DNA from: an uncultured Granulosicoccaceae bacterium
GTDB taxonomy: Bacteria > Pseudomonadota > Gammaproteobacteria > Granulosicoccales > Granulosicoccaceae
Assembly: GCA_937951345.1 (NCBI GenBank)
Contig: CALFCF010000076.1
Span: 1-64,000 of the forward strand
Direction of reading: 5' to 3'
DNA length: 64,000 nucleotides
The position numbers were made by a program, and so were the translations under genes. Positions within the stretch are counted from its first letter, which is position 1; every line of letters begins with the position of its first letter. Below the pieces are notes generated by a model. That model was not told where the DNA came from. It made no database searches and saw only the letters and a list, made by a program, of their open reading frames with translations. Of the stretch, positions 6,116-58,591 are shown one piece after another.

Positions 6116-7696
6116 ATGGCGCTCAACCCCATCAAAATTCTCCGCAAAAAAGTGGTGGGGCAAGCTGATGCCCGCGACAGCCGTCGCTCGGGTTCGCTTG
6201 CCAACTCGCCAGCGGTCGCCGCATCCCGCGCAGCGGTCGAGCAAAGACGGGTTAATGCCGAGCAACGAGCCGGGGTTGATTCCGCAATATCACCTGACCG
6301 CGAAAATGCCGTGCAACCAAATGTTGCCAGTGATCAGAGTGGTTCTCAGCAGGGTGGTAACAAGAGTGCCGGCCAGACGACACAGATTGCACCTGCTGAC
6401 ATCGTCGTACCGACGAACATCGGCCGTTATACATTGGGTGGCCGTTTGGGCAGTGGCACTTGCGGTGTTGTGCACAAGGCGCTTGATACGGTGCTTGATC
6501 GTGAGGTTGCGATTAAATTATCGCCGGCTGGTGAGCCGCATGTAACGACTGGCAAGGTGCCCGGTGCGCAGTGCGCCTATCAGACGGAACTCTACGCGGC
6601 GGGTCGACTGCGTCATCCGAATATCATCACTGTCCACGATGCCGGTCAGCATGACGAATTGAACTACATGGTCATGGAGGCTGTTCGTGGCCGCTCATTG
6701 AAGCACTTTGGCAAGGGACAAAAGCTTCTGCCACCACATCGCGCACTTGAGATCGTCATTGATTGCTGCAGGGCGCTTGACTACTCACATGATCAGGGCA
6801 TTCTGCACCGCGATATAAAACCGGCAAACATTATGATTGCTGAGAATGGGGCGGTAAAATTGCTGGATTTCGGTATTGCTGTGGGGTTGACCGACGATGT
6901 AGCGCTAAGCCGTAAAGGGCCTACTCTCGGTACACCGAACTACATGTCACCAGAGCAAATTCTTGGTAAATCTCTGGGCCCCGCCAGTGACTTGTATTCT
7001 TTGGGCACAGTATTATTTGAGCTTATTACCGGAAAACAACTGTTCAAAGCCCGCAAGGTAAAGGATCTGTTTCGAACCGTCGTGCACGAACGCGCACCGC
7101 AGGTTGCCGAGTTTCGCCCCGACTTACCGGAAGCGTTCTCGCAGGTGGTCGCTACGGTACTTGAGAAAAAACCGGAAACACGTTTTCAATCCGGCTCTGA
7201 ATTCATCGTGGCACTGCTTCCGTTTGTTGAGGACTTTAAAACCCGTGGCTCTCACACGCCTGAACAAATCACGCTTGCCGCAACATGCACCGGATTATCT
7301 TTTTTTGCCGGACTTACCGAAACTGAAATGCTGCAGTTGCTCGATGAAGCTAATCTGCGTCAGTTCAGCGCCGGTAATGAATTGCTCAGTGGTGCAAACT
7401 TTGAGCGACGCCTACTGGTTGTGATCGAGGGTATTGTCCGGGAATATAAAGGTGGTATTGTCGAACACGTATTCACCGACGGCGATAGCCTCGGTGAAAC
7501 CGGTTTCGTGCAGGGAAATCCAGTCGACAGCCAATTGTTCGCGGCGACACCAGTAAAAGCTATTGAGATATCCTCGGCAGCGCTGGCGGCATTGCCACCT
7601 GAGTTACACATCAGCTTATACAAACGTGCATCTGCCGCGCTGATTGAACGCGCGGCGTTGTCGGAACGGCGTTTCAAACCCGATATTGTTCTATAG
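6116..7696 (+). CDS. Ser/Thr protein kinase with C-terminal cyclic-nucleotide-binding domain
   Basis: A Hanks-type (PknB-like) kinase. Residues 1-100 are a low-complexity, polar N-terminal region. The kinase domain runs about 103-370, with the glycine loop GSGTCG (112-117), VAIK with Lys134, the catalytic loop HRDIKPAN (231-238, Asp233), DFG (251-253) and SPE (278-280) in place of APE. Residues about 375-515 resemble a cNMP-binding/Crp-type beta-barrel (FFAGLTETEM, VVIEGIVREY, GDSLGETGF). All key catalytic residues are present, so it should be active. No PASTA repeats and no transmembrane segment are seen, so it is probably cytoplasmic and allosterically controlled through its C-terminal domain. 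No PP2C phosphatase or FHA partner is adjacent. The substrate is unknown. Confidence 0.9.
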   Translation: MALNPIKILRKKVVGQADARDSRRSGSLANSPAVAASRAAVEQRRVNAEQRAGVDSAISPDRENAVQPNVASDQSGSQQGGNKSAGQTTQIAPADIVVPTNIGRYTLGGRLGSGTCGVVHKALDTVLDREVAIKLSPAGEPHVTTGKVPGAQCAYQTELYAAGRLRHPNIITVHDAGQHDELNYMVMEAVRGRSLKHFGKGQKLLPPHRALEIVIDCCRALDYSHDQGILHRDIKPANIMIAENGAVKLLDFGIAVGLTDDVALSRKGPTLGTPNYMSPEQILGKSLGPASDLYSLGTVLFELITGKQLFKARKVKDLFRTVVHERAPQVAEFRPDLPEAFSQVVATVLEKKPETRFQSGSEFIVALLPFVEDFKTRGSHTPEQITLAATCTGLSFFAGLTETEMLQLLDEANLRQFSAGNELLSGANFERRLLVVIEGIVREYKGGIVEHVFTDGDSLGETGFVQGNPVDSQLFAATPVKAIEISSAALAALPPELHISLYKRASAALIERAALSERRFKPDIVL

Positions 7697-7896
7697 CAGC
7701 CCGTTCGTGGACAGACTCACCGGTACCTAACCGATCTGCGGCTGCTTACCATTGCCCGCTCGATGGTAATTTATTGAATCCAGAGCTGATTTCAAATGCA
7801 AAACGTGCCTGAGCTGCAGGGATTAGTGCATAATGATGCATCGTCGCCCTCTAAGCTCAAATCGGTCGTGATTTTTGCATGCATTTTAAATCGATG

Positions 7897-7935
7897 TGAG
7901 CGTTTGCTCACCCCTACATCCGGGAAACCGGGAGG
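7897..7935 (+). promoter_or_regulatory. Leader hairpins and ribosome binding site before a small exported protein
   Basis: A GTGAGC-GTTT-GCTCAC hairpin (about 7897-7912) is followed by CCGG-GAAA-CCGG, a GNRA-loop hairpin that runs straight into the GGAGG ribosome binding site (7931-7935). This arrangement could modulate translation of the gene at 7943. No known riboswitch class was recognised. Confidence 0.4.
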
Positions 7936-7942
7936 TCTTCAA

Positions 7943-8317
7943 TTGAAATCACTTACCAAGATTGCAAATATTGCTTGTCTGACGCTGCTACTGCTCAGCT
8001 CTGGTTTTGTCAGTGCTTCTGATCTTTACGTGGGCTCTTGGGCATCAGGCGAAAAAGAAGTTTTGCAAATTACCAAAAACGGTTCGGTGCTCAATGCACA
8101 GTTTGTTCGTGAAGGGTTGCTGAACAATTTCGAAAAAGTCGAATTTCCTGCCAAGGTGGTAGACGGCAATCTTACTATTTCGTTTGGCCAGGGTGATCTT
8201 TCCGGCAAATACGATGCAGTAAGAAAAATTTTAGTGCTCGGTGGTATTAAAACGTTTGAGAAAATCACAGAGAACCAGGCGCGTTCGATGATTGCGCTGC
8301 TGGAGAAGAACCAGTAG
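7943..8317 (+). CDS. Small exported protein of unknown function
   Basis: Not recognised. The TTG at 7943, seven bases after a strong GGAGG, gives 124 residues with a clear signal peptide: KSLTK, a hydrophobic core (IACLTLLLLSSGF) and a probable cleavage after VSA before SDLYVGSW. The mature part of about 100 residues is beta-rich (alternating pattern LQITKNGSVLNAQFVREG, LTISFGQGDLSGKYD) and reads like a small periplasmic lipocalin-like or beta-sandwich domain, but no family can be named. The frame is open back to 7796, but the stretch before 7943 has no ribosome site and no signal peptide. A perfect terminator hairpin follows it. Confidence 0.7.
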   Translation: MKSLTKIANIACLTLLLLSSGFVSASDLYVGSWASGEKEVLQITKNGSVLNAQFVREGLLNNFEKVEFPAKVVDGNLTISFGQGDLSGKYDAVRKILVLGGIKTFEKITENQARSMIALLEKNQ

Positions 8318-8330
8318 CTTTTTATATGAA

Positions 8331-8360
8331 CGATTAATCCGGCAGTTGCCGGATTAATCG
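8331..8360. terminator. Bidirectional terminator hairpin
   Basis: CGATTAATCCGGCA and TGCCGGATTAATCG form a perfect 14-bp inverted repeat separated by two bases. It lies between the convergent exported-protein gene and galE and probably serves both. Confidence 0.75.
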
Positions 8361-8462
8361 TCAGATATAGTCGCAGTCGGCATTAACGCACACCAATATC
8401 TTCAACAAGTGCGACGATCGTTGCATGCAACATCATTTACCGCCTAATCATTTACCGGTTAA

Positions 8463-9455
8463 TCAGTTCTCACTCAATTTGTGCTCCCATTGCAGTGCTG
8501 ATTCGACGATTTTATCCAAATCGTCGTAAGCCGGTTTCCAGTCAAGTGTTTGATGGATTTTCTCGACACCGGCAACCAGAGATGGAGGATCTCCGGCGCG
8601 CCGCGGTTGCTCGCTGACATTCAGCTTCTCACCGTGGATCTTTTCAACTGAATTGATCACTTCCCGAACACTGAACCCTTTGCCATATCCACAATTTAAC
8701 AACGTGGAGCTGCCATCGTTACGCAGATAGTCCAGCGCACTTAAATGTGCTGCCGCAAGATCTGATACATGAATATAATCTCTGACGCCCGTGCCATCCG
8801 GAGTTGGATAGTCTGTACCAAAAACCAGTAACTGATCGCGTTTGCCAACCGCCACTTCGGCGGCAACTTTAATCAATAACGTTGCATTAACGGTTGACTG
8901 CCCGATTTCCCCTTCAGGATCACTTCCGGCTACATTGAAGTAACGGAGAATGACATGGCGCATATCTGAAGCCATGGCCAGATCTTTCAGCATGTATTCC
9001 GACATCAGTTTTGACATGCCGTAGGGATTTATCGGTGCGGTAGGGAATGATTCTGTGCAGGGTCCGGCATCTTCCGCAGGAATGCCGTAGGTTGCGGCGG
9101 TTGATGAAAATACAAAGTGTCTGATTTGATTGTTCTGACAACACTCCAGCAGATTGCGTGTAGCGGCAGTGTTGTTGCGATAATACTTTAGAGGATTTTC
9201 AACGCTCTCAGGCACAATGGTATGTGCTGCGAAGTGCATGACAGTATCAATCTTATGATCTTTCAATAAGCGGTCTACCAGCTCAGTATCCGCAGTATTG
9301 CCTTGCACCAGTTCACCGGATAAAACTGCTTCAGCATGGCCTGTTGACAGATCATCCAGTACGACAACCTGCTCGCCCTGTTGGCCAAGTAGTTTGACGA
9401 CATGACTGCCGATATAGCCGGCACCGCCGGTGACAAGAATTTTGTTATTGCTCAT
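8463..9455 (-). CDS. galE: UDP-glucose 4-epimerase
   Basis: An extended short-chain dehydrogenase that interconverts UDP-glucose and UDP-galactose (or the N-acetyl forms) using tightly bound NAD. The 330 residues begin with the Rossmann motif GGAGYIGS (10-17). The catalytic SSTAATYG segment (117-124) and YGMSK (Tyr145, Lys149) are intact. The sugar-binding LRYFNVAG is present, as is the GTDYPTPDGTGVRDYIHVSDL stretch typical of GalE. It stands alone, with no gal or glycan cluster nearby, so it may feed surface polysaccharide or general galactose metabolism. No gene was found in the 244-bp gap to the divergent addB-like gene. Confidence 0.95.
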   Translation of the reverse strand: MSNNKILVTGGAGYIGSHVVKLLGQQGEQVVVLDDLSTGHAEAVLSGELVQGNTADTELVDRLLKDHKIDTVMHFAAHTIVPESVENPLKYYRNNTAATRNLLECCQNNQIRHFVFSSTAATYGIPAEDAGPCTESFPTAPINPYGMSKLMSEYMLKDLAMASDMRHVILRYFNVAGSDPEGEIGQSTVNATLLIKVAAEVAVGKRDQLLVFGTDYPTPDGTGVRDYIHVSDLAAAHLSALDYLRNDGSSTLLNCGYGKGFSVREVINSVEKIHGEKLNVSEQPRRAGDPPSLVAGVEKIHQTLDWKPAYDDLDKIVESALQWEHKLSEN

Positions 9456-9699: not shown

Positions 9700-12660
9700 G
9701 TGAACTACATGTCCGTTATTAAGCACCTGGATCAGGGTGGAGTGGTGGTGACAGCCCATCGCCGCCTGTCGCGATCGTTGCACAATGATTACTGTAAGTA
9801 TCGCTCAAGTCAGGGTGACTCGGTCTGGATAACACCTCTGATTCTGCCGCTTGACGCCTGGTTTATTCAGTTGTATTCCACGCTATTGAGTCTGCGTACA
9901 ATCGATGTGCGATTGCTGGATAACGAACAGGTTGTGCAGCAGTGGCAGAAGTTGATAGACGATGCCGATGATCAGTTTTTTTTGAGCCCATCACGCACAG
10001 CGACCAGCCTTGCGAAAGCCTGGTTGTTACGCGAAACCTACCAATCGGGTGTAGCCAGTTCTGATGTGGGAGGGCTCCCATTCATCTATCAGGGGCAGGA
10101 CTGCGCATACTTCAGCGCGCTGGCGCAGACTTACGAGCAACACCTGCTTGAGCTGAACGCCGTTGACAGAGCCGTATTACCGGAATTTCTGCGACGTGAG
10201 ATGCCGCGGATCTTGACTGAAATATCATGTGCTGCAAGTGACGGTTCTTCCGACCGGAGCGAGACCCCGTCTGCTCAATTGTTGAGCAAAATTATGCTGG
10301 CTGGATTTGCTCAGCTAACACCCTCGGTTGGGCAACTCTTTCAATGTATTGATGAGCAATTCCCTGTGTTGGTTCATGACACGTTTGCGGCAAACGATTC
10401 GACGCCCGCTGATCTGTCGGTGCTATCTGGTCGCTCCGACCATGATTTGGAAGATCATGGAAATGCCTCGTTGCATCGAGCAGTCGAACCTGCAGAGGCC
10501 CGGCGTCATGAATTTGCCAGCGCGGAAGATGAAATACTGGGTGTCGCGCGATGGTGTCGACACAAACTGTCCGTTGCAACAGATGATGATCTTCCCGATA
10601 TCGTTGTTGTTGTATTTGATTTGCAGAGTCGCTTGTCGCAGATACAACGTTTGTTCGACGAAGTTTTTTTCCCGGGGCAGTCGCCGCTTGAGATTTTACA
10701 AACCGGCAGGCCCTACGACATCGGTATTGGTTACGAGCTTTCAGATTGGCCGTTAATTCGTTCTGCGATCTTAGCTCTGCGTCTGGCTTTAGCCGATGCC
10801 GGGCAGCTTACACTCGGCGGTAAGGAGTTCAGTGAACTACTGCTTTCACATTACTGTCTGAATTTGCCGGCTGATGCGCCGCCTCAGGTTGTTGATGCAG
10901 AAATGAAAAAGCGCATGCTTTTCGATCAGTCGCTACGGCGTACCGGCAGACATACGATATTGCTTGACGATTTGCGCGAAAACGAAAATCTACCCGAGCT
11001 GTTCAGGCGTGGACTCGCCCGTGTAAAACCCCCGCGACAGAAAATCATGTCGGCAAGTGCCTGGTGCAATCACTTCAGTAATACTTTGAGCACATTTGGC
11101 TGGCCGGGGCCGGGTCTTGACAGTGCAGAGCATCAGGCGTTTTTAGCCTGGCAGGATGTGCTTGGAAACTATGCGCGTGCCGGTGAAACTGTAGGTTCGC
11201 ATAGCGCGCAGGACGCGTTAACGCTGTTGCAACAATTGTTAAGCAAGCGCAGATTTCAACCCGAGACGCAGCAATTACCCATACAAATTATCGACCCGCA
11301 TGAAAGTATCGGTTTACGTGCGGATCATATCTGGGTCACCGCGATGGATACCCGCAACTGGCCCGGTCAGGTATCACCGGATGCATGGTTGCCCCGTCGT
11401 TGGCAGCAAGTCGCTGGAGTGCCCGGGGCTTGCGCACGAACTGTGGCGCGCGATGCCGCAACCCGCTGGCAATCATGGCTCGCGTCGGCAACTTCCACGG
11501 TAATAGCCAGTTTTGCACATGAGCGAGATGACCAGCCGGTCGCCGGTGCGACTCTATTAAATACTCTGACGCCGCTTGCATCGGGTGCTGAGCTCGACGG
11601 TGACGACGTTTGCAGGTTCAACCGCACGCTATTCGATACCCTGTCTCCGGAGATCATAGAGTTAGAAGACTGCCAGGGTCCGGGTATAGATGATGGTGCC
11701 ACGGTGGGCGGTGGCGTACGGATCTTCGAAGATCAGGCTCAGTGTCCGTTTCGCGCATTTGCCCGCCATAGGCTGATCGGTAAATCCTTCGAAGAAGCAC
11801 AGCACGGTATCGATCCGCGGCAGAAAGGTAATTTGCTGCATCACTGCATGCAGCTTTTCTGGCAGCAGGTACAGGACAGTCAATCGCTGCACAAGTTAAT
11901 TGCTGCCGGTACACTGGAATCTGTTGTTGATAATTGCATTGAATCCGCTTTCCAACAGGAGAACGATGACAGGGGGTTATTTCATCAGGCAGAGTTAATA
12001 AACCTCGAAAAAGATCGCATTCGCCAACTTATGCTGATTTGGTTACGGGAAGTTGAGGCGACGCGTAGTGACTTTACCGTTATTGCGACGGAAGAGAGTC
12101 GCCAGATAGACATCGAACAGATGACTTTTAAGTTGCAGGTTGATCGTATTGATGCGCTGGCTGAAGGTCAGAAAGCGATTATTGATTACAAAACCGGTTC
12201 AAATAACTCAAGCAGTGGTTGGCTGCGTGAGCGCGTACTTAATCCGCAGCTACCGATATACGCAACACTTGAGGATGATGTTGCGGCTTTGGCCTTCGCA
12301 CAAACTACGCGTAACGATACAACTTTCAAAGGACTCGCTGCGGATGACGACCTTCTGCCATCGCTTAAATTCAAGCCCAATAGCAGTGGTTCCAGGGGTA
12401 ACCGGGCCAATCCAGTAGCGCAGGCTGTGACTGATGCAGAGAATTGGCAGGATCTTGTGGATTTCTGGCGCGATCGAACGGGTCTGCTGGCGAGAGAAAT
12501 CAAATCCGGTCACGCTGTCGTTGATCCGCAGCCGGGTGCTTGTGATTACTGTGAATTCCGGGGGTTGTGCCGTATCGATCCTCTGCAGCGCGACAGGCTG
12601 GCGCAGGCGTTCGAGGATTCTTCCGATAGTAATTCTGCGTTGAACGGTGCGAGTGAATAG
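9700..12660 (+). CDS. AddB-like PD-(D/E)XK Fe-S exonuclease (probable DNA repair protein)
   Basis: Predicted partner of the helicase-nuclease encoded just downstream; together they should resect double-strand breaks in the manner of AddAB/RecBCD. The 986-residue protein has a long, weakly conserved N-terminal helicase-like part without a readable Walker A. A C-terminal RecB-family nuclease follows: CPFRAF begins at Cys682, a helix carries the H of GNLLHHC, and IIDYKTG gives the catalytic Asp829 and Lys831. Cys682 with the terminal C-x2-C-x5-C (Cys948, 951, 957) reproduces the Fe-S cluster pattern of AddB nucleases. Start is GTG 9700 or ATG 9709; neither has a clear ribosome site. The gap to the next gene is 53 bp, so an operon is likely. 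Confidence 0.85.
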   Translation: MNYMSVIKHLDQGGVVVTAHRRLSRSLHNDYCKYRSSQGDSVWITPLILPLDAWFIQLYSTLLSLRTIDVRLLDNEQVVQQWQKLIDDADDQFFLSPSRTATSLAKAWLLRETYQSGVASSDVGGLPFIYQGQDCAYFSALAQTYEQHLLELNAVDRAVLPEFLRREMPRILTEISCAASDGSSDRSETPSAQLLSKIMLAGFAQLTPSVGQLFQCIDEQFPVLVHDTFAANDSTPADLSVLSGRSDHDLEDHGNASLHRAVEPAEARRHEFASAEDEILGVARWCRHKLSVATDDDLPDIVVVVFDLQSRLSQIQRLFDEVFFPGQSPLEILQTGRPYDIGIGYELSDWPLIRSAILALRLALADAGQLTLGGKEFSELLLSHYCLNLPADAPPQVVDAEMKKRMLFDQSLRRTGRHTILLDDLRENENLPELFRRGLARVKPPRQKIMSASAWCNHFSNTLSTFGWPGPGLDSAEHQAFLAWQDVLGNYARAGETVGSHSAQDALTLLQQLLSKRRFQPETQQLPIQIIDPHESIGLRADHIWVTAMDTRNWPGQVSPDAWLPRRWQQVAGVPGACARTVARDAATRWQSWLASATSTVIASFAHERDDQPVAGATLLNTLTPLASGAELDGDDVCRFNRTLFDTLSPEIIELEDCQGPGIDDGATVGGGVRIFEDQAQCPFRAFARHRLIGKSFEEAQHGIDPRQKGNLLHHCMQLFWQQVQDSQSLHKLIAAGTLESVVDNCIESAFQQENDDRGLFHQAELINLEKDRIRQLMLIWLREVEATRSDFTVIATEESRQIDIEQMTFKLQVDRIDALAEGQKAIIDYKTGSNNSSSGWLRERVLNPQLPIYATLEDDVAALAFAQTTRNDTTFKGLAADDDLLPSLKFKPNSSGSRGNRANPVAQAVTDAENWQDLVDFWRDRTGLLAREIKSGHAVVDPQPGACDYCEFRGLCRIDPLQRDRLAQAFEDSSDSNSALNGASE

Positions 12661-47424: not shown

Positions 47425-48180
47425 ATGATGAGACGTATTAACATGAAGTATATATCTGTTACTTTGCTGCTTTTTATCGCTTTTTTACCCGTTCACCGGG
47501 TATCAGCAAAAGAAGTCACAATGACCTTCGATCAAACCATCGTGCCATTTGTCCTGGCAGATCAAGATGGTGGTATCCAGGTTGACATTATTAGAGAGGC
47601 TTTGGCATTTAAAGGTCACACGCTTGTTGCTGTCTATGTATCAGCAAAACGCATGATGCATGAATTAAAAATTGGTGCGGTTGACGCGGCATCAAGTGGC
47701 TCTTACGATCCGGCGACTGAAAAAGGCTTTCATTATGGGATAGCGCCGTTTTCGTATCGGAATGCCTTTTTTACGCTCGAAGAGCGCAGTATAGATATAC
47801 AAAAGCCTTCTGATATCGATGATTTTCGGATAGCTACCTTTCAGAACGCTAAACTCATTTGGCCGGATTGGCTGGAGCCGATCGACCAAAAGAACAATTA
47901 CATTGAAGTTGCTGATCAATCGCTACAACCCAAGATGCTGGAACACGGTCGAGTTGACGCTGTTGTAGCCGATCAAACAATTTTTGCTTACTACACCCGG
48001 CTTCTGGAGAAGCAAAGTGGAAAAAAATTAAAACCAACAGTTGCGTATTCATTTACCGATCCTGTTAGTTTCCCTCCCGTATTTAAATCGGAGCAAATAC
48101 GAGACGACTTCAACGAAGGCATACAGCACCTGCTGGAAACTTCCAGGCACGAAGAAATTTTCGACGCTTATCTAAAGTAA
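47425..48180 (+). CDS. Periplasmic solute-binding protein, family 3 (candidate ligand sensor)
   Basis: 251 residues with a signal peptide (YISVTLLLFIAFLPVHRVSA, cleavage before KEVT). The mature part is an SBP_bac_3-like amino-acid-binding fold (IQVDIIREALAFKGHTL, GAVDAASSGSY, PFSYRNAFF, VDAVVADQTIFAYY). Starts at 47425, 47428 or 47443 are possible; the ATG at 47443 begins directly with the signal peptide. No ABC permease or ATPase is adjacent. It lies 25 bp before the hybrid kinase, so it more likely passes a ligand signal to the kinase's periplasmic domain than serves transport. The ligand is unknown. Confidence 0.83.
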   Translation: MMRRINMKYISVTLLLFIAFLPVHRVSAKEVTMTFDQTIVPFVLADQDGGIQVDIIREALAFKGHTLVAVYVSAKRMMHELKIGAVDAASSGSYDPATEKGFHYGIAPFSYRNAFFTLEERSIDIQKPSDIDDFRIATFQNAKLIWPDWLEPIDQKNNYIEVADQSLQPKMLEHGRVDAVVADQTIFAYYTRLLEKQSGKKLKPTVAYSFTDPVSFPPVFKSEQIRDDFNEGIQHLLETSRHEEIFDAYLK

Positions 48181-48205: not shown

Positions 48206-50530
48206 ATGGACTTTAGCGAGCAATTGCCGAATCGCCGGATACTTATTCGGTCCAAAATCCTTAGTATCACGGTTCCCATCATACTGATTTGTATTCTGGC
48301 GGTATTCGGGATGTTTGAATACAACGCTCAATCCAAAGCGGTCAACGCACTTCAGCAGAAGATGGATAGAGTGATGGATGTTCAGGCAAAAGTGTTGTCA
48401 GAACCCACCTGGAATTTGGCAGAAAAACAGATCCAGCTAACACTTGAAGCGCTTATAGAGGCCGATCCAGATATATCGCAAGCAATAGTTTACGATGAAA
48501 GTAAAAGTCAAATTGCTGCAGCATACGGTGATGAGCAATCTTCCAGCGCTTTCTTCACTCATGAACGTGCCATAAAATATATTGTCTCGGGACAAATCAG
48601 AAACATTGGAACACTTGAAATTATCTCAAGCCAAAAGAGCCTGGCATCCGAGCGCTATAGTCGGCTGTTATTAGCAGGTGTGCTTGCAGCGTTGCTGGTT
48701 GTGACGGTGATTTTGGGGACGCTGTTTGCAGTAAACCGAGTTGTCGGTGTCCCTATGAATTTGTTGTTAAAGTCCATCAATCAAACAACAGGTGATCAAC
48801 GCGACTTAATCGATTTCAGCAGCACAGATGAAATGGGTATGGTTATCAAGTCCTACAACAGCATGTTAACCAGGGAGCAAGAAAATAAACAAGCATTGAA
48901 TGCCCTGAATGAACAGCTTGAAGAACGGGTTTCATTGAGAACGCAAGAGCTTTCAGCCGCTCGTGATGAAGCAGATCGGGCTAATCAGGCTAAAAGTTCT
49001 TTCCTCGCCACAATGAGCCACGAAATTAGAACCCCGCTCAACGGCATAATTGGCATGAGTACTTTACTTGAAGGTACAAAGCTCAATGAAGAGCAACGTG
49101 AATTCAGCCAGACGATACACAATGCCAGTGACACTCTATTGTCGATCATCAATAACATTCTGGACTTCTCCAAAGTTGAGGCAGGTGCAATCGATCTCGA
49201 AAAAAGACCTATTAATCTGATCGAAACCATAGAAGACGCTATAGAACTGGTCTCAACGGAAGCCTCTGAAAAAAGGCTTGAATTAATCTGTAACATAGAT
49301 GATTCAGTGCCTGAAGGTGTGCTGGGTGACTCAACACGCTTGAAACAGATTCTGATGAATTTAATGAACAACGCTATAAAATTCACAGAATCGGGTGAGG
49401 TTATGTTAGATGTGAAATTACTAACACCAGATACCTTGAAATTTACGATTACGGATACAGGCATTGGTATTCCTGTAGATCGTATGGATAAATTGTTTAA
49501 ATCTTTTTCTCAAATTGATACATCTACAACAAGACGTTATGGCGGTACCGGTTTAGGGCTGGTTATTACAAAAAAAATGGTTGAGCTTATGGGCGGTGAC
49601 ATAAAGGTGGAAAGCACCTTAAACAAGGGGTCTGTTTTTTCCTTTGTAATCCCATTCGAAACCGCTAAAGCGCCGGCTGCATTAGCGACAATTGAGCTGC
49701 TATCGTCTGTTAAAGGGCGAAAGGCGCTGGTCGTAGATGATAATTCAACCAATAGGTTGATATTGTGTAACAAGCTTAAGAAATGGGGGGTCGATGTTTT
49801 TGAGGTGTCTGATCCTCGTGATGCATTGGATGCTCTTGATCAGAAGAAAGAGTTTGACTTTTGTATTATAGACTTTGCTATGCCGGGAATGGATGGCATC
49901 GAGCTGGCGAAAGAAATTCAAATGCGCCGTGATAATAGTATGGAAATTATACTTTATACCTCGATATCACCATCAGATTTTGAAATTCGACAACGATTGG
50001 AAAGTGTAAAGCTCTCTGCAGTGTTACTTAAGCCTGCAAAAACATCTCAAATATTGGCAACTATTGCGCGCGCGATGTCGATTGAAACAGCGACGGAAAG
50101 TCAAGCCATAACAACGCTTGATACGCACCGCAATGCTAGAAATTTGCGCATTCTTCTGGTTGATGATAATGCGATCAACAGAAAGGTAGGGTCGAAGATA
50201 CTCAAGCGTATCGGTTACGGACCAGATATTTCCAACAGTGGTCAGGAAGCAATAGAGGCTTGCCAAAAACAATCTTATGATTTGGTGCTAATGGATATAG
50301 AAATGCCAAACATGAACGGCATTACTGCGACACAAAAAATACGCGATCTCCTGCCAAAGGAAGATATGCCTTATTTCATTGCGTTGACCGCAAATGCAAT
50401 GGAAGCGGATCGAAAAACCTATTTGGCTTCTGGAATGGATGGTTATCTAAGTAAACCTATAGATATGAGTGCGCTCATGGAAGCGCTGGATGATGTTAGT
50501 GAACATCGCTCTAACTTGAATAAATTGTAA
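48206..50530 (+). CDS. Hybrid sensor histidine kinase with two receiver domains
   Basis: 774 residues. Transmembrane helices lie at about 19-37 and 153-176, enclosing a periplasmic sensor of about 115 residues. Then a HAMP-like region, a coiled coil ([20 protein letters not shown]), the HisKA box with His272 in [10 protein letters not shown], and the HATPase with its N box [16 protein letters not shown] and GGTGLGL. Receiver 1 (about 505-625) has the phosphoacceptor Asp556 and Lys609; receiver 2 (about 647-765) has Asp697 and Lys750. All phosphotransfer residues are present. It follows the solute-binding gene by 25 bp and precedes an HPt gene by 81 bp, giving a full multistep phosphorelay. 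Confidence 0.93.
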
Positions 50531-50611: not shown

Positions 50612-50965
50612 ATGACACAGATTGATACAGGTGCGTTAGTCCGTCTACGTGATGTTATTGGTGGAGATGAGGAAGATTTGGCTGAGCTTATTCAAGATTT
50701 TTCTGAAACATCCCCCGATCTTGCTGATCAGATGGCGGCTAGTGCTAACGCTTCGGATTGGGCTGCATTAAAGATAGCTGCCCATTCGTTAAAATCTAAC
50801 TGTAAAGACTTTGGAGCAGTCGAGCTCGCCGAATTGTGTCAGTCATTGGAAAGTGAGAGTGCACAGGGTGAGGTCACGAATGCACATGATAAAGTTGAAA
50901 AAATTTCCGCCGAAGTAAAAATAGCCGTCAAATTTCTACAGGATTTAGATTTGGCTGGACTTTAA
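50612..50965 (+). CDS. HPt phosphotransfer protein
   Basis: 117 residues, single helical histidine phosphotransfer domain. The phosphorylatable His58 is in AAHSLKSN, with the usual Gly-containing follow-up KDFGAVELAELCQ. It relays phosphate between the receivers of the hybrid kinase and an output receiver. It is encoded directly after the kinase and is the second-last piece of the phosphorelay. The convergent receiver-permease gene ends 72 bp away and is the obvious candidate output. Confidence 0.9.
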   Translation: MTQIDTGALVRLRDVIGGDEEDLAELIQDFSETSPDLADQMAASANASDWAALKIAAHSLKSNCKDFGAVELAELCQSLESESAQGEVTNAHDKVEKISAEVKIAVKFLQDLDLAGL

Positions 50966-51037: not shown

Positions 51038-52621
51038 TCAGGTATTGTCTGGATGCGTGATGCTTGATGTGCCCGGTTGTGAATTGCGATTGTTGGGCGC
51101 TCCAGTATCAACCCGAGGAAAGATTGGCGTCTTATCTTCCTCTTGTCTTCGTGGCCCTACCAGAAACAATCCGCATAACATCAACAGTAAGGCGAGCCAG
51201 GCAATACCAGGTAGCCTCTCACCGAGTAGCAATGCGCCCCATGCAATGCCGCAGACAGTAACGACGATACTGCTCTGGCTGGCAAATACAGCACCCAGAT
51301 ACTTAATCAGAATTACCCGAAGCGAACAGGTCACCGCCGAGATTAATCCCATTAGAAGCACAACCATCGTAACCTTGTCAAAACCACTGCCAAATTTTAG
51401 CGGGTAATAGTCATCAAATATCACAATGAGCGGTAGCAGTATTATCGCAGCGGCAAATCCGGAGTAACCAGCCGCTGTAATTCGGTCAAGTTCTTCGGGC
51501 AAATACTGTGCGAGCATCAAGCCACGCAAGGCGTATCCCAGCGGACCCATGGCAGCAACGAGAATCCATGTCCAGCGGGCTTCTCCTTCAAGGTTTTGGG
51601 TTACCGACATCAGGACAAATACGCCAACGACTCCAATGACAAAACCCAGGAAGCGCCGCAAACTAGGTTGTTCAATTCTAAAGACCATGGCCAGCAGGAA
51701 AGCCATGAAACCTTCTGTTACCACAACCAACGAAATAATCCACGCCTCTAGTTGCTCAGCTGCCCAGAAGATAAAAACTTCACCTATCAGTGTTCCCAGT
51801 ATGCCCCAGGCTGCGAACACCACTATCAATTTGGCATTAAGGCGGAACAGTTTCCCTCGCACTGCACCAACTCCGATACACAACACGCCACATACAATGT
51901 TGACCCAGAAAGCAGTACCTATGGGATGAGGTTGCTCCAACGCTACTGTCCGCGACAATGGTGCCCATAGTCCTGAGACTATGCCGATAGCAAGTAATCC
52001 GAACACACCTTTAAGAGCACTAATCTGCTCGCGTAAACGCCGATCTCTCTCGTACACCTGGGCGGTCATGCGTGCAAACACACGAGATAGCCGGCCTAGA
52101 GAATCGTCGCGTGCGTCTATATCTTCAAACTGAAACCTTGCTGGATCGACGACTTCTTTTTCGAGTATTGCTGCTGCGTCGGCCAGTCGCTCGACCTGAT
52201 TCAGGTAGGTGATCTCGCGATCGCGGTTTCTTTTTTTCTCCAGCGACGCTCCGATTCGTGCGTTAAGAAGAACCGGATCAAAATTCTTTCTCAGAAAATC
52301 CTGTGCCCCAGCCTTGATCGCTCGAACTACACTGTCCATCTCGCCATCAAGTGACGAAATAACGATGACTGGAATTTCGCGCAAATGCTTGTCAGCGTTC
52401 ATTTGGCGCATTACCTCAAAGCCATCGATATCCGGCATCACAATATCGAGTAGTATCAGATCTACTGATTCTGATTTTAAAAATTCCAGTGCTTGCGCGC
52501 CGCTTTCCACAGAGACGGCGTTGTAGCCCAGATTTTTTACCGCCAGCAATATCTTTTTACGTTGAATGGCCTGGTCGTCGACCACAAGGATAGTTTCGAC
52601 AGCGCGTGAAGAGTTCTCCAA
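51038..52621 (-). CDS. Response regulator receiver fused to an EamA/DMT-type permease
   Basis: 527 residues. N-terminal receiver (9-125): acidic DD at 15-16, phosphoacceptor Asp59 (LLLDIVMPDIDGFE), Ser89/90 and Lys112. A 75-residue linker rich in charged helices (ERLADAAAILEKE, SLGRLSRVFARM) resembles signalling helices. From 204 on, ten hydrophobic helices in two EamA-like halves (second half from about 360) run to GLFLVGPRR, then a polar tail. Receivers joined to integral transporters are rare. The lack of a DNA-binding or enzymatic output suggests that phosphorylation directly gates export or import. It is convergent with the kinase/HPt operon. Confidence 0.88.
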   Translation of the reverse strand: MENSSRAVETILVVDDQAIQRKKILLAVKNLGYNAVSVESGAQALEFLKSESVDLILLDIVMPDIDGFEVMRQMNADKHLREIPVIVISSLDGEMDSVVRAIKAGAQDFLRKNFDPVLLNARIGASLEKKRNRDREITYLNQVERLADAAAILEKEVVDPARFQFEDIDARDDSLGRLSRVFARMTAQVYERDRRLREQISALKGVFGLLAIGIVSGLWAPLSRTVALEQPHPIGTAFWVNIVCGVLCIGVGAVRGKLFRLNAKLIVVFAAWGILGTLIGEVFIFWAAEQLEAWIISLVVVTEGFMAFLLAMVFRIEQPSLRRFLGFVIGVVGVFVLMSVTQNLEGEARWTWILVAAMGPLGYALRGLMLAQYLPEELDRITAAGYSGFAAAIILLPLIVIFDDYYPLKFGSGFDKVTMVVLLMGLISAVTCSLRVILIKYLGAVFASQSSIVVTVCGIAWGALLLGERLPGIAWLALLLMLCGLFLVGPRRQEEDKTPIFPRVDTGAPNNRNSQPGTSSITHPDNT

Positions 52622-53307: not shown

Positions 53308-53982
53308 TCACTCATCCCCGACGTCGCGGGAAGTTTGCAGCGAACGCATTTCGGTCGTGGTGAAGTCGTCAGCCAGGTTTAGTGAGTAATAAAGGGCAAT
53401 TGCCTGGCTACGATTTCGGACATTCAATTTGTCGTACAGGTTACGCAGGTGAAACTTAACGGTGTTAACCGCAATGTTGTGGTTGGATGCCAGTTCTTTG
53501 TTGGTTCGACCCAGTGATAATGATGCGAGAAGTGCGCGTTCTGTTTTCGTCAATGTTTGTAGTGGGTCGGCCAGCTCTCTGACGTCAAGGTAGGGGAATA
53601 CCATGCTGCCGATCGCGACGGTTGCGATGACTTCCAGCAATTCTTCAGATGGCGATGTGTGGCAGAAAAACCCGGCTGCTCCTGCGGCCATTGCGCGTTT
53701 GGGCACCTCGAGAGATTTAACGTGGGTACAGACCACCACGCGCATCGGACTGTTTTCATCACGCAATACTTTTATGAGCTTCTCGGCACCCAGTGTCGGC
53801 AGCAACCAGTCGACAACCAGTACATCACCCGGCGATTCGAACGATGTTTTCAGGCAGTCCTCGGCCGATGTTACCGTGCTCATCAGGCTGAAACGGGGAT
53901 CCTCCTCGATCAATTCCGACAACGCGGTGAGCATCAGCGCGTTACCCTCGGCGATGGTGATCCCAATTGGCTTAGCGCTCAC
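53308..53982 (-). CDS. LuxR-type response regulator with degenerate receiver
   Basis: 224 residues: a receiver (about 7-125) and a LuxR/GerE helix-turn-helix (about 145-210, LTKTERALLASLSLGRTNKELA, NTVKFHLRNLYDKLNVRNRSQAI). The likely phosphoacceptor Asp58 (VLVVDWLLP) and the Thr of VVVCTHV remain. The acidic pair is reduced to Glu12 (IAEGNAL), and the conserved Lys is replaced (FFCHTSP), so control may not depend on normal phosphorylation. It is divergent from the sga-mtk operon with a 150-bp shared region, which makes it the likely regulator of these C1/serine-cycle genes. No kinase is adjacent. Confidence 0.85.
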   Translation of the reverse strand: MSAKPIGITIAEGNALMLTALSELIEEDPRFSLMSTVTSAEDCLKTSFESPGDVLVVDWLLPTLGAEKLIKVLRDENSPMRVVVCTHVKSLEVPKRAMAAGAAGFFCHTSPSEELLEVIATVAIGSMVFPYLDVRELADPLQTLTKTERALLASLSLGRTNKELASNHNIAVNTVKFHLRNLYDKLNVRNRSQAIALYYSLNLADDFTTTEMRSLQTSRDVGDE

Positions 53983-54132: not shown

Positions 54133-55383
54133 ATGCTAATGAGCACAAATACCTTTGAACGATTAACGATACCGCACACGCTGGCCGCAGGCCCGGGACC
54201 GGGAAACACCGACCAGCGTGTGCTTGAACAGTATGCCCGTTGCGGTGTAGCGGATCACATGCAGCCGGATGTTTTGCGTGGCATGGTTGAATGCAAATTC
54301 ATGCTGCGCGATGTGTTCGGGACAGATAACGTGCACACCTTCGGCGTTGCGGGTACGGGTTGGAGCGGACTGGATGCCATGATGAGTGCGGTCCTGCCGG
54401 GTGACACTGTTGTAGCCTTCGTCAACGGCACATTCTCCGGTATCGACGGTCTTACACTGCGCATGAAGGCTGCGACAGCAGAAGAGCTCGCTGCCGATCC
54501 AACCAACCCGCAACCAGCCTCTGTCACTATCGTAGAAATCCCGCACGGGCAGTCTGTTGATGCTGCAACGATTGAGGATGCATTGAGCCGGCACAAACCG
54601 AAGTGGGCATTCATGGCGCACTGGGAAACCGGTTCGGGCCGGATTAACGACCTTGGAGCTTTCTCTGAATCTTGTGAACGTCACAATGCCATGGGATTGA
54701 TCGATGCAGTGTCGTCACTGGGTGTCGCAGACTTTTCGATAGACGATTATCCGGGCGTCGCTGCATGGGCTTCATGTCCGCAAAAAGGTATTTGTTGTTT
54801 GCCCTTGACCTATGCGCCTGTCAGTTTTACTGACCGTTATATAGCAGTACTCAAGCAGACCGGCACGCGTACCTTTGTTCACCATCCGATACTTGAAGCT
54901 CGTCATTGGGGCATTGTTGATGGGAAAGATGTCGAGAAGGGGACCTATCATCGCACCCATTCTGCCTATGCTGTTGCCGCTTTTCATGAGGCGCTGCGCT
55001 TGACACTCGCCGATACGCTCGGAGCACGAGCCGCACTCTATCGCCAGCATGAGGAAGTGTTGCGCACAACGCTTGAAATGCTGGGTTGCCGCGTAACGTC
55101 CAACATGAGTAGTCTGGTTGTGTTCAACCTGCCGGAAGCGTTCGCCGGAAGTGAAATGGAACTCGTGCAGAACTGCCGGGCAGAGGGCTTTGGTATCTGG
55201 ACAACATTGAGTGAACCGGTGCAGATCCGGATCGGTATTTTGAACCAGCTGAATGAGGCTGCTATCACCGAGATATTGACACGCTTCACCGTAGCGCTGA
55301 ACAATATAGGTGCGGATGTCGACATCGACCGACTCAAAGCAGACATCGCGAGTATGTACCAAATCGAGGCAGTTGCGGTTTAA
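54133..55383 (+). CDS. sgaA: Serine-glyoxylate aminotransferase (class V)
   Basis: PLP enzyme that transfers the amino group of serine (or alanine) to glyoxylate, giving hydroxypyruvate and glycine, a core step of the serine cycle. 416 residues; the N-terminal AAGPGPGNTDQRVL is the class V start, DAVSSLGV near 191-198 the cofactor-binding loop, and Lys218 (CPQKGICC) the Schiff-base residue. The related alanine-glyoxylate enzyme cannot be excluded by sequence, but mtkAB and a hydroxypyruvate reductase follow. ATG 54133 or ATG 54139 may be used. First gene of the operon, 123 bp before mtkA. Confidence 0.87.
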   Translation: MLMSTNTFERLTIPHTLAAGPGPGNTDQRVLEQYARCGVADHMQPDVLRGMVECKFMLRDVFGTDNVHTFGVAGTGWSGLDAMMSAVLPGDTVVAFVNGTFSGIDGLTLRMKAATAEELAADPTNPQPASVTIVEIPHGQSVDAATIEDALSRHKPKWAFMAHWETGSGRINDLGAFSESCERHNAMGLIDAVSSLGVADFSIDDYPGVAAWASCPQKGICCLPLTYAPVSFTDRYIAVLKQTGTRTFVHHPILEARHWGIVDGKDVEKGTYHRTHSAYAVAAFHEALRLTLADTLGARAALYRQHEEVLRTTLEMLGCRVTSNMSSLVVFNLPEAFAGSEMELVQNCRAEGFGIWTTLSEPVQIRIGILNQLNEAAITEILTRFTVALNNIGADVDIDRLKADIASMYQIEAVAV

Positions 55384-55506
55384 CCGAGTGGTACTGCAAA
55401 CCGTACTGAATGCTGCCCGGCGTCGGAACGAGGCTAACAATTGAGAAGCGTACGTCCAGACTTTTTAGGGTAATGTTGTCGTGAGATAACAAAGTTGGAG
55501 TGCTGC

Positions 55507-56700
55507 TTGGATATACATGAGTATCAGGCAAAAGAGCTTCTCAACGGTTTTGGTATTCGCACTCCCAGAGGAGGGTTAGCCTACAGCCCGGAGCAAGCTG
55601 CCTATCGCGCACGCGATATTGGTGGTGAGCGCTGGGTAGTCAAAGCACAGGTGCACAGCGGTGGTCGTGGCAAGGTCGGTGGTATTCACGATTGCGGCGA
55701 TGAGGACGCGGTTTACCGGGCGGCCAGCCGGCTGTTCGGCAGTCGCTTACAAACCGGTGGTAGCGGCTCTCCTTCAAAGGTTGTTTATCGCGTTTACGTC
55801 GAGGAATACGTTGAAATTCAGCGTGAGATGTACCTCGGTCTTGTGCTCGATCGTAATAGCGAGCGGGTCATGGTGGTTGCCTCTGCCAGCGGTGGCATGG
55901 AGATCGAAGAAATCTCCGTTTCAGAGCCTGATTCAATTCTGCGTTGCATTGTTGAGCCCGCTGTCGGCATGCAGGCGTTTCAGGCACGTGAAATCGCCTT
56001 TCTGTTGGGCATTGATTCGGCCAACCTGCGTTCTGCGACGGACCTGATACTGGCAGCTTATCGCGCGTTTGAAGAACTTGATGCGACCATGGTGGAAATA
56101 AACCCGCTGGTGATTGCTGAGGATGGCCGGTTGTGCGCACTCGATTCGAAAATGACTTTCGATGACAACGCATTGTACCGCCACCCTGAGATTGCTGAGC
56201 TGCGAGACAAGTCGCAGGAGGATGCGCGCGAAACGCGAGCTATGGATCGTGGCCTGAAGTACATCGGGTTTGACGGTGATATCGGTTGCATCGTCAATGG
56301 TGCGGGCCTTGCCATGGCGACGCTTGATCTACTCGAAAAGCATGGTGGTCGAGCAGCAAATTTCCTCGATATCGGTGGAGCTGCGCCGCCGGAGCGTGTC
56401 GCTAAAGCGATCCGTCAGTTGCAATCGGATGAGCACCTCAGTGTACTGCTCATTAATGTATTTGCCGGTATCAATCGTTGTGACTGGATCGCAGAGGGGG
56501 TTGTTCAAGCGCTTGCCGAGAAACCACTAACTATACCGGTAGTGGTGCGCCTGGCAGGCAATAACGTTGAGGAAGGGCGAAAAACATTGTCGCGCAGCGG
56601 TCTGCCGATTATAAGAGCCAGCACACTGGATGAGGCTGTGACGCGGACAATAACTGCTAGACAACGAATGATCGACAGCAACGGCCCACGCAACCCATGA
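55507..56700 (+). CDS. mtkA: Malate-CoA ligase subunit beta (ATP-grasp)
   Basis: ATP-grasp subunit of malate thiokinase, which makes malyl-CoA from malate and CoA in the serine cycle. Homologous to SucC, but the C-terminal pattern NVFAGINRCDWIAEGVVQAL with RLAGNNVEEGR is typical of MtkA. N-terminal DIHEYQAKELLNGFGI and VVKAQVHSGGRGK form the nucleotide site. TTG 55507 is chosen because GGAG (55497-55500) precedes it by six bases and the family starts MDIHEYQ; the longer frame from 55495 covers that site itself. 397 residues. The stop overlaps mtkB (ATGA). If read alone it could be taken for succinyl-CoA synthetase; the context decides. Confidence 0.87.
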   Translation: MDIHEYQAKELLNGFGIRTPRGGLAYSPEQAAYRARDIGGERWVVKAQVHSGGRGKVGGIHDCGDEDAVYRAASRLFGSRLQTGGSGSPSKVVYRVYVEEYVEIQREMYLGLVLDRNSERVMVVASASGGMEIEEISVSEPDSILRCIVEPAVGMQAFQAREIAFLLGIDSANLRSATDLILAAYRAFEELDATMVEINPLVIAEDGRLCALDSKMTFDDNALYRHPEIAELRDKSQEDARETRAMDRGLKYIGFDGDIGCIVNGAGLAMATLDLLEKHGGRAANFLDIGGAAPPERVAKAIRQLQSDEHLSVLLINVFAGINRCDWIAEGVVQALAEKPLTIPVVVRLAGNNVEEGRKTLSRSGLPIIRASTLDEAVTRTITARQRMIDSNGPRNP

Positions 56701-57620
56701 GCATTCTGCTGGAGCGCGATACCAGCGTGCTTATTGTAGGCATCAGCGGTCGGATCGGCAGTTTTCATTGCCAACGTATGCTGGACTATGGCACCCGGGT
56801 TGTTGGTGGTATTACCCCCGGTAAAGGGGGGGGCAACATCGCCGGTCTACCGGTTTTTAACACGGTAAAAGAAGCGACCACTGCGACGACCGCGACCGCC
56901 TGCATCATCATGGTGCCACCACCTTTTGCAGCCGATGCCATTATGGAGTCAGCGGATGCAGGCATCAGACTGTGTGCTGCCATTACCGATGGTATTCCGG
57001 CTCAGGACATGATCAAGGTTAAACGTTACATGCTGCGTTACCGTGAAGCCAACAGCATGCGTTTACTCGGCCCCAATTGTGCCGGTGTGATCAGTCCGGG
57101 AAAATCCCTGATGGGTGTTATGCCCGATGCGATTTACTCACCCGGCGTTGTTGGTATCGTATCGCGTAGTGGTACGCTGGGTTACGAAGCGGCATCGCAA
57201 CTAAACGCTGTCGGTCTGGGTGTTTCCACCAGTGTCGGTATTGGAGGGGATCAGATCACCGGCAGTAGCTTCCTTGATATCCTCAAACTGTTTGATGCTG
57301 ATGATGAAACCAAAGCGGTGGTGTTACTCGGCGAAATCGGTGGGCCGCAGGAGGCGGAGGCCGCACGTTATATCAAGGATTCGTTCTCTAAACCGGTTGT
57401 TGCGTACATAGCAGGAACCTCCGCACCCGTCGGGCGAAGTCTTGGACATGCCGGAGCAATTATCACAGCGTTCGATGATCGTGCTGACGAGAAAGCGAGT
57501 GTGTTGCGTGACAGTGGTGCAATCATCGCGGAAGATCCGGCATCAATTGGCACCACGGTTAAATCGGCACTTGCCGGATGTTCCCTTACAAGGCCTAAAA
57601 AGAGAAAGAGTAAAACATGA
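56697..57620 (+). CDS. mtkB: Malate-CoA ligase subunit alpha
   Basis: CoA-binding subunit that carries the phosphohistidine. 307 residues: an N-terminal CoA-binding Rossmann fold (VLIVGISGRIGSFHCQRML, VVGGITPGKGG), then RLLGPNCAGVISP and SRSGTLGYEAASQL, and the active-site His in GRSLGHAGAII. The C-terminus ends in a short Lys-rich tail (RPKKRKSKT) not typical of SucD. It overlaps mtkA by four bases and the next gene by four bases, so the three are tightly coupled. The family overlaps with succinyl-CoA ligase alpha; assignment to malate relies on the operon. Confidence 0.87.
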   Translation: MSILLERDTSVLIVGISGRIGSFHCQRMLDYGTRVVGGITPGKGGGNIAGLPVFNTVKEATTATTATACIIMVPPPFAADAIMESADAGIRLCAAITDGIPAQDMIKVKRYMLRYREANSMRLLGPNCAGVISPGKSLMGVMPDAIYSPGVVGIVSRSGTLGYEAASQLNAVGLGVSTSVGIGGDQITGSSFLDILKLFDADDETKAVVLLGEIGGPQEAEAARYIKDSFSKPVVAYIAGTSAPVGRSLGHAGAIITAFDDRADEKASVLRDSGAIIAEDPASIGTTVKSALAGCSLTRPKKRKSKT

Positions 57621-58591
57621 AACCTAGTGTTATTGTCACGCGGCGCTGGCCTGCATCTGTTGAAAAGGCATTGCAGGACAAGTTCACTGTAACCCTCAAC
57701 TCAACTGATCAGCCCTTTAGTGAGCAGCAGTGGCTGGATGCATTCAACGCACATGACGCTGTGCTGCCGACAGTGACAGACCGGTTGGATGCGGCAATAC
57801 TCAGCCGGATTGATGCCTCTACGTGCCGCACCAAAATTATCGCTAATTACGGTGTCGGTTTTAGTCACATAGACATTGGCGAAGCGCAACGGCTCGGTTT
57901 GGTTGTCACGAACACTCCGGACGTGTTGAGCGAATGTACCGCGGATATCGCAATTATGCTGGCGTTGATGGCCGCGCGGCGCGCCGGAGAGGGTGAGCGT
58001 CAGGTCAGAAGTCGAGCATGGGCGGGCTGGTGTCCGACTCACATGATAGGCCGCAAGGTCAGTGGTAGTACATTCGGTATTATCGGATTCGGGCGTATAG
58101 GACGGGAAACTGCCCGACGTGCCCGGGGTTTCGGTATGAATGTCATCGTACACAATCGCTCGCGTGTATCCGATGACATCTTGCAGGAGGAGCACGCCAC
58201 ACAGGTTGACACGCTTGAGGACTTACTCAGTCAGGCCGATTTTGTCTCACTGCACTGTCCGGGCGGCGCAGAGAATACCGCTTTGATCAATGCAGATCGC
58301 CTAAAACTTATGAAACCGACAGCCTTTCTAATCAATACAGCCAGAGGTGAAGTGGTCGACGAGCCAGCACTGCTTGAAGCGCTTAGCAATAATCAGATTG
58401 CCGGTGCCGGTTTAGACGTTTTTTGCAATGAACCTGATATTCGATCCGAGTTTCTTGAGCTCGAAAATGCCGTGTTGCTTCCGCATCTTGGCAGTGCCAC
58501 GCAGGATACGCGTGAAGCGATGGGACTTCGTGTCGTTGCGAATCTGAACGATTTTTTTGCAGACCTCAACCCTCGAGATCGGGTTATCTGA
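57617..58591 (+). CDS. D-2-hydroxyacid dehydrogenase (hydroxypyruvate/glyoxylate reductase)
   Basis: NAD(P)H-dependent reduction of hydroxypyruvate to D-glycerate and/or glyoxylate to glycolate. 324 residues with the nucleotide site GFGRIGRETA (near 156-165), the catalytic Arg in NTARGEVVDE, the Glu in DVFCNEP and the His in LLPHLGSAT, so the Arg-Glu-His triad is complete. It overlaps mtkB by four bases and ends the sga-mtkA-mtkB operon, where it would take the hydroxypyruvate made by the aminotransferase. Phosphoglycerate dehydrogenase (SerA) relatives have extra domains that are lacking here. Confidence 0.87.
   Translation: MKPSVIVTRRWPASVEKALQDKFTVTLNSTDQPFSEQQWLDAFNAHDAVLPTVTDRLDAAILSRIDASTCRTKIIANYGVGFSHIDIGEAQRLGLVVTNTPDVLSECTADIAIMLALMAARRAGEGERQVRSRAWAGWCPTHMIGRKVSGSTFGIIGFGRIGRETARRARGFGMNVIVHNRSRVSDDILQEEHATQVDTLEDLLSQADFVSLHCPGGAENTALINADRLKLMKPTAFLINTARGEVVDEPALLEALSNNQIAGAGLDVFCNEPDIRSEFLELENAVLLPHLGSATQDTREAMGLRVVANLNDFFADLNPRDRVI

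Follow-up and report, generated by a model that had tools for sequence, protein, structure and literature searches.

Two-component systems almost always act on gene expression or on enzymes. We asked whether a gene of an uncultured Granulosicoccaceae bacterium, lying in a stretch of 64,000 nucleotides that was analysed as a whole (the window), encodes a response regulator with a different kind of output. The preliminary description had claimed that an intact receiver (with Asp59 and Lys112) is fused, within one frame that has no stop or frameshift, to a full EamA permease of two halves, and thus that a response regulator has a non-standard, membrane-bound output. These claims were borne out. 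The ORF scan of the window found a single frame of 527-528 codons, open throughout from 51038 to 52621 on the minus strand, that spans the receiver, the linker and both EamA halves (Table 1). Pfam Response_reg matched the receiver with an E value of 1.1e-25 (90.4 bits, cut-off 30.2), and its active-site set is complete, as Asp15, Asp16 and Ser89 are present together with the two residues named before. Pfam EamA matched in two stretches (1.1e-20), each half exceeding the cut-off of 28.2 bits, and the two repeats with about ten transmembrane helices that characterise EamA/DMT carriers were found (from helix 205-227 to helix 472-487, in a model of low confidence). The position of the start codon is uncertain: upstream of the TTG, ATT is the only in-frame codon after a TAG stop, and no clear Shine-Dalgarno sequence precedes the TTG in the printed sequence. 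This affects only the ∼9 residues that precede the receiver.

Table 1. Features of the fusion gene and of the neighbouring relay genes (positions in the window)
Feature	Position	Strand	Remarks
Exported solute-binding-like protein, probable periplasmic input	47425..48180	+	SBP_bac_3 26.1 bits, just below the cut-off of 26.4
Hybrid histidine kinase	48206..50530	+	774 aa: CHASE5, weak HAMP, HisKA, HATPase_c, two receivers
Stand-alone HPt phosphotransfer protein	50612..50965	+	117 aa, HSLK motif
REC - HAMP-like linker - EamA fusion protein	51038..52621	-	527 aa, TTG start, no internal stop
EamA half 2, residues 351-488	51158..51571	-	Pfam EamA, 41.2 bits
EamA half 1, residues 204-338	51608..52012	-	Pfam EamA, 48.1 bits
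HAMP-like linker, residues 133-200, helix-connector-helix	52022..52225	-	profile comparison and structure model
Receiver domain, residues 11-123	52253..52591	-	Pfam Response_reg

Could the frame be two genes joined by a sequencing error? We compared 18 full-length fusions (alignment A2), which come from the window's family, from a second family of Proteobacteria and from a Mesorhizobium plasmid. The three-part layout is read in one stop-free frame in all 17 fusions besides that of the window. Therefore the single frame is no assembly artefact, and a frame error was rejected as its explanation.

To see how widespread the architecture is, relatives were searched for with an alignment of eight fusions (A1), at a threshold of 1e-60 in the family search. 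The bacterium's own genome (G000, 4.49 Mb in 115 contigs, the window being contig C76) holds three fusions: that of the window, one at C89:21981-23516 (50% identity) and one at C37:1509-2978 (43%; locus L009, 1503-3026). In the window's family, 9 of 48 genomes matched, six with at least one full-length fusion and three with EamA only. The class sample gave one match in 369 genomes, the own genome itself; in the phylum sample 18 of 398 matched, three of them (including the own genome) with a full-length fusion and the rest on the receiver side or the EamA side only. The second proteobacterial family, to which one of these three belongs, gave matches in 6 of 295 genomes. One of these six (L170) lacks the receiver start, and here an ORF that occurs twice in the stretch and may be an insertion element sits between the kinase and the fusion. 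Among 72,556 plasmid records three matched at ≥80% coverage, all from Mesorhizobium and with a 38% identical fusion. When genome contigs were scanned by receiver motifs, a script found fusions in only one of the 80 loci kept, L023, which is labelled Brevirhabdus sp. MAG and has two intact fusions and a third that has a frame change in the linker. The viral scan gave three loci, and the matches listed there cover receiver residues only (at most 1-151). A common, known architecture was thus rejected on the rarity of the fusion in the family, class, phylum, second-family and plasmid samples. The literature searched, in the extracts at hand, contained no description or characterisation of a receiver-EamA fusion, and the corresponding extracts of three surveys of two-component systems (PMC5847659, PMC4558063 and PMC1183210, the last not aimed at all output domains) contained no carrier output. 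The parts of the protein are all of known kinds; their order is new to us.

We then looked at which residues are kept. In alignment A2, D15, D16, D59 and S89 are present in 18/18 fusions and K112 in 17/18, the exception being the C37 copy, in which Glu replaces the lysine. This copy is an orphan, with no kinase in the stretch read, and is possibly independent of phosphorylation. Nine positions of the carrier (G213, E317, G326, G330, P360, G443, F446, Q449 and E468) are invariant in all 18. Furthermore, pN was well below pS in the receiver, linker and carrier segments in each of the five pairs compared, with dS saturated in three of them. The receiver is better conserved than the carrier (46-65% versus 26-46% identity between the window's protein and the 17 other fusions). 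The closest NCBIfam model for the carrier is TIGR00950, a carboxylate/amino acid/amine transporter, at 34.1 of 230.2 bits, which is far below the cut-off; the substrate is perhaps an amino acid, an amine or a carboxylate. A sequence search of solved structures with the whole profile gave receiver-side matches among the best 60 of 318, and the carrier part gave no match in such a search.

What connects the receiver to the carrier? The preliminary description had assigned the ∼75 residues between them to a signalling helix. The linker is indeed helical and ∼70 residues long (about 133-203), but it does not appear to be one uninterrupted helix. Pfam HAMP did not match any of the eight fusion proteins scanned (E up to 10). 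A homologous linker behind the receiver of an Anaerolineae protein (L024) does match Pfam HAMP (1.2e-8), and by hhalign the fusion linkers aligned to those of L024 and of a Gemmatimonadota protein (L028) with 99.1% probability (P 5.2e-18). Against 13 HAMP units they aligned end-to-end and in register with P 6.8e-4, at a probability of only 11%; in the controls, 100 column shuffles reached at most 0.4%, HisKA 0.0% and HPt 0.1%. The HAMP-type pattern, that is helix, connector and a second helix starting with acidic-x-hydrophobic-G, is present in the fusion linker. In an AlphaFold2 monomer model, built from a shallow alignment of 12 rows, the receiver is mostly above pLDDT 90 and the linker at ∼76-92, while the carrier half is poorly modelled (pLDDT blocks of ∼37-75; pTM 0.41). 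The model is helical in the linker, but instead of a single helix it has one helix (116-154) that links the receiver's last helix with the first of the linker, a connector at 155-173 that breaks the linker, and a second helix (174-227) that runs from the linker through TM1. On the basis of the homologous linkers, the profile comparison and the helix-connector-helix of the model, we consider the linker a divergent HAMP-like unit and a single continuous signalling helix (S-helix) unlikely; helix continuity from the receiver through the linker into TM1 is predicted by the model. L024 and L028 share the receiver and the HAMP-like unit with the fusion but, unlike it, have no membrane carrier: in L024 the HAMP unit is followed only by another stretch that looks helical, and L028 continues into a Ser/Thr protein kinase. 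In L028 the receiver, HAMP-like unit and kinase lie in one frame (6430-8505) behind a HisKA-like stretch.

Next, we asked which proteins could phosphorylate the receiver. In the window the genes for the solute-binding-like protein, the hybrid kinase and the HPt protein lie on the plus strand, tail to tail with the fusion gene on the opposite strand. No ABC permease gene was recognised beside the solute-binding-like protein in the window. To compare neighbourhoods we used 17 loci, taking tandem fusions as one locus, counting identical plasmids once and leaving out G409:C182 (which has only receiver and linker), locus L159 as a duplicate from Mesorhizobium and a third Mesorhizobium record. In the stretches around the fusion, a hybrid kinase is found at 14/17 loci (C76, C89, G013:C42, G002:C38, G028:C72, G408:C68, G409:C190, L023, L160, L161, L169, L170, L171 and L158). 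A stand-alone HPt is found at 12/17, the window and 11 further loci, all with a kinase; of the two kinase loci that lack it, G409:C190 is truncated by a contig end and L170 is interrupted. Neither gene is present in the stretch read at C37, G028:C12 and G409:C76, with a contig end near the fusion at C37 and G409:C76. The phosphorylatable histidine is kept in all 12 HPt proteins (HSLK, HTLK, HSMK or HSCK). The clustering that marks a multistep phosphorelay, of a hybrid kinase, an HPt with its histidine and a terminal receiver, was therefore found in the window and 11 further loci of the 17. In L160, L161, L169 and L158 the HPt frame overlaps that of the fusion on the same strand (when the longest start is taken), and of just three stand-alone HPt matches in the own genome, two adjoin fusions. 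A periplasmic input protein is present at most loci, and the window has all four parts. Judged by these gene neighbourhoods, the solute-binding-like protein, hybrid kinase, HPt and fusion are one cassette that is conserved in other genomes. No second output gene, such as one for a DNA-binding regulator, recurs in the cassette across the loci examined.

Several other features were seen around these genes. A LuxR/NarL-type response regulator is encoded at 53308-53982 (-), directly upstream of the fusion and on the same strand; it might share the relay or be independent of it. Farther along, at 54133-58591 (+), lies a row of genes for an aminotransferase (PhnW/BhcA-like, far below the cut-offs), the beta subunit of malate-CoA ligase (590 bits, slightly under the cut-off of 604), a succinate/malate-CoA ligase alpha subunit and a glyoxylate/hydroxypyruvate-reductase-like dehydrogenase; the row resembles a portion of a serine-cycle type pathway. 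In Mesorhizobium (L158, 10658-11683) a 2-hydroxyacid dehydrogenase gene directly follows the fusion, and the window has one ∼5 kb from its fusion, which could be due to chance. Rfam gave no match in the window, and scans of the window for promoters and terminators gave site counts about equal to those in shuffles.

Does the input of the cassette vary? At six loci (C89, G013, G002, G028:C72, G408 and G409:C190) a Tll0287-like protein, with CxxCH in 6/6, stands beside the kinase. According to extracts of one recent study, this family is a c-type-heme Cache domain whose fused forms behave like NO sensors and whose stand-alone forms probably have redox roles (PMC12889525). The stand-alone proteins seen here (L010, 2244-3077, and five similar loci) are constantly next to a hybrid kinase, which is a candidate signalling partner of the stand-alone class. 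Elsewhere we found a DctP-type binding protein (L160, L169), an SBP_bac_3 protein (L161) and exported-looking, Pfam-negative proteins (L023, L170). The kinases differ as well: Pfam TorS_sensor_domain matched those of L161 (30.5 bits) and L169 (29.4 bits) above its cut-off of 27 and that of L160 just under it (25.3), the Mesorhizobium kinase has GAF domains, and in NCBIfam the window kinase scores best with TorS, below the cut-off at 468.2 of 676.5 bits. Thus the input varies between loci and the output is constant.

We also traced the carrier in a tree of 33 carrier domains, including those of the 18 fusions. One group (support 99/99) unites all 18 fusions with three receiver-less proteins of the window's family; five stand-alone carriers of other genomes, and one encoded on contig C86 of the own genome, lie just outside it. 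The three receiver-less proteins (L129, L130 and L131) share the carrier part with the fusion at E ∼1e-80 but, unlike it, have neither receiver nor linker. They nest within the fusions, so that the fusions alone are no clade, although the inner forks are weak (83/56) and constraining the 18 fusions to one clade was not rejected (p-AU 0.311). The tree fits a single fusion event followed by loss of the receiver, which is probably how the trio arose. Because this receiver-less clade from three genomes nests in the fusion group, the carrier part is maintained without its receiver. At locus L127 an ORF (10469-11209) with a receiver and HAMP-like linker ends where the carrier part begins, as a truncated or decaying fusion.

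The fusion and its adjoining relay genes suggest that transport is switched on and off directly and not via gene expression. We think it probable that the fusion acts as the last response regulator in a phosphorelay of four proteins, with a DMT/EamA carrier as its output that is gated through a HAMP-like lever. Kinase activity would be set by the periplasmic input protein (solute-binding-like in the window) together with the CHASE5 sensor of the kinase, and phosphate would be handed from the His of the hybrid kinase to its own receiver, on to the HPt His and finally to Asp59 of the fusion, which may act as a dimer. Phosphorylation would shift the last helix of the receiver, predicted to be continuous with the first HAMP-like helix, and the second HAMP-like helix, unbroken into TM1, would move the carrier between active and inactive states. 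Transport would thereby be controlled after translation and within the time of a phosphotransfer.

Could the signal run in the opposite direction, from the carrier to the receiver? The EamA part would then sense a substrate and, via the HAMP-like unit, alter the gain or loss of phosphate by the receiver, which would be a regulated phosphate sink that feeds back on the HPt and the kinase. HAMP units normally do signal from the membrane to the cytoplasm, and at three loci (L121, L023 and L171) tandem fusions share a single kinase and HPt. Moreover, CbrA, in which an SLC5 transporter and a histidine kinase form one polypeptide according to an extract of PMC13022988, is a precedent for the fusion of a transporter to signalling domains. 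We disfavour this explanation because the cassette has no other recurring output gene, so that the feedback would have no fixed output, and the retention of the carrier alone in three relatives also speaks against it; we regard it as unlikely. It is more doubtful still that the EamA part is only an anchor that holds the receiver close to the membrane-bound kinase. Receivers that lack a classical output can work by protein contacts (or, here, as a phosphate sink), as archaeal regulators do in extracts of PMC5847659, but an anchor would not require two EamA halves above the cut-off, the nine invariant carrier positions and purifying selection on the carrier. Finally, a decorative or decayed receiver on an unregulated carrier after a chance gene fusion would suit the C37 copy, in which K112 is lost and around which the stretch read holds no kinase, and the G409:C182 copy, which is only receiver and linker, but is very improbable, given that the receiver is conserved above the carrier and that the kinase and HPt are retained across a large phylogenetic distance.

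If the receiver directly gates the carrier, transport would respond in the time of a phosphotransfer, and phosphorylation, HAMP conformation and transport could be measured in one natural polypeptide, in which a HAMP-like unit would be seen to signal towards the membrane. Moreover, the cassette suggests testable inputs, namely solute-binding proteins in some genomes and c-type-heme Cache proteins in others. More broadly, we see about an even chance that these proteins form a class of response regulators with membrane transport as output, in which an exchangeable sensor (a solute-binding protein, a c-type-heme Cache protein, or a TorS-like or GAF kinase) would act through a phosphorelay to open or close a DMT carrier via a HAMP-like unit that works from cytoplasm to membrane, the reverse of the usual direction.

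How does the system compare with known ones? In the TorT-TorS-TorR phosphorelay, which responds to TMAO, a periplasmic binding protein stands beside a hybrid kinase, as it does in the cassette. TorR, the final regulator, is a DNA-binding protein. In contrast, the final regulator here is a membrane carrier, and the HPt is a separate protein. Among the close counterparts are the Mesorhizobium proteins WP_199201986.1 / WP_080643891.1, which share the architecture of the fusion, are 38% identical to the window protein over 94% of its length and lie behind a GAF-kinase and an HPt; their input is a cytoplasmic GAF, unlike that of the window, and their name, 'response regulator', reflects the receiver only and not the carrier. 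As far as the extract of PMC13022988 goes, CbrA resembles the fusion in that a transporter and a two-component part share one polypeptide. HisKA and HATPase_c are absent from our fusion in the Pfam scan, which sets it apart from a transceptor kinase of the CbrA type. However, in CbrA the transporter stands at the input end of a kinase, whereas in the fusion a carrier of a different family stands at the output end, behind a receiver.
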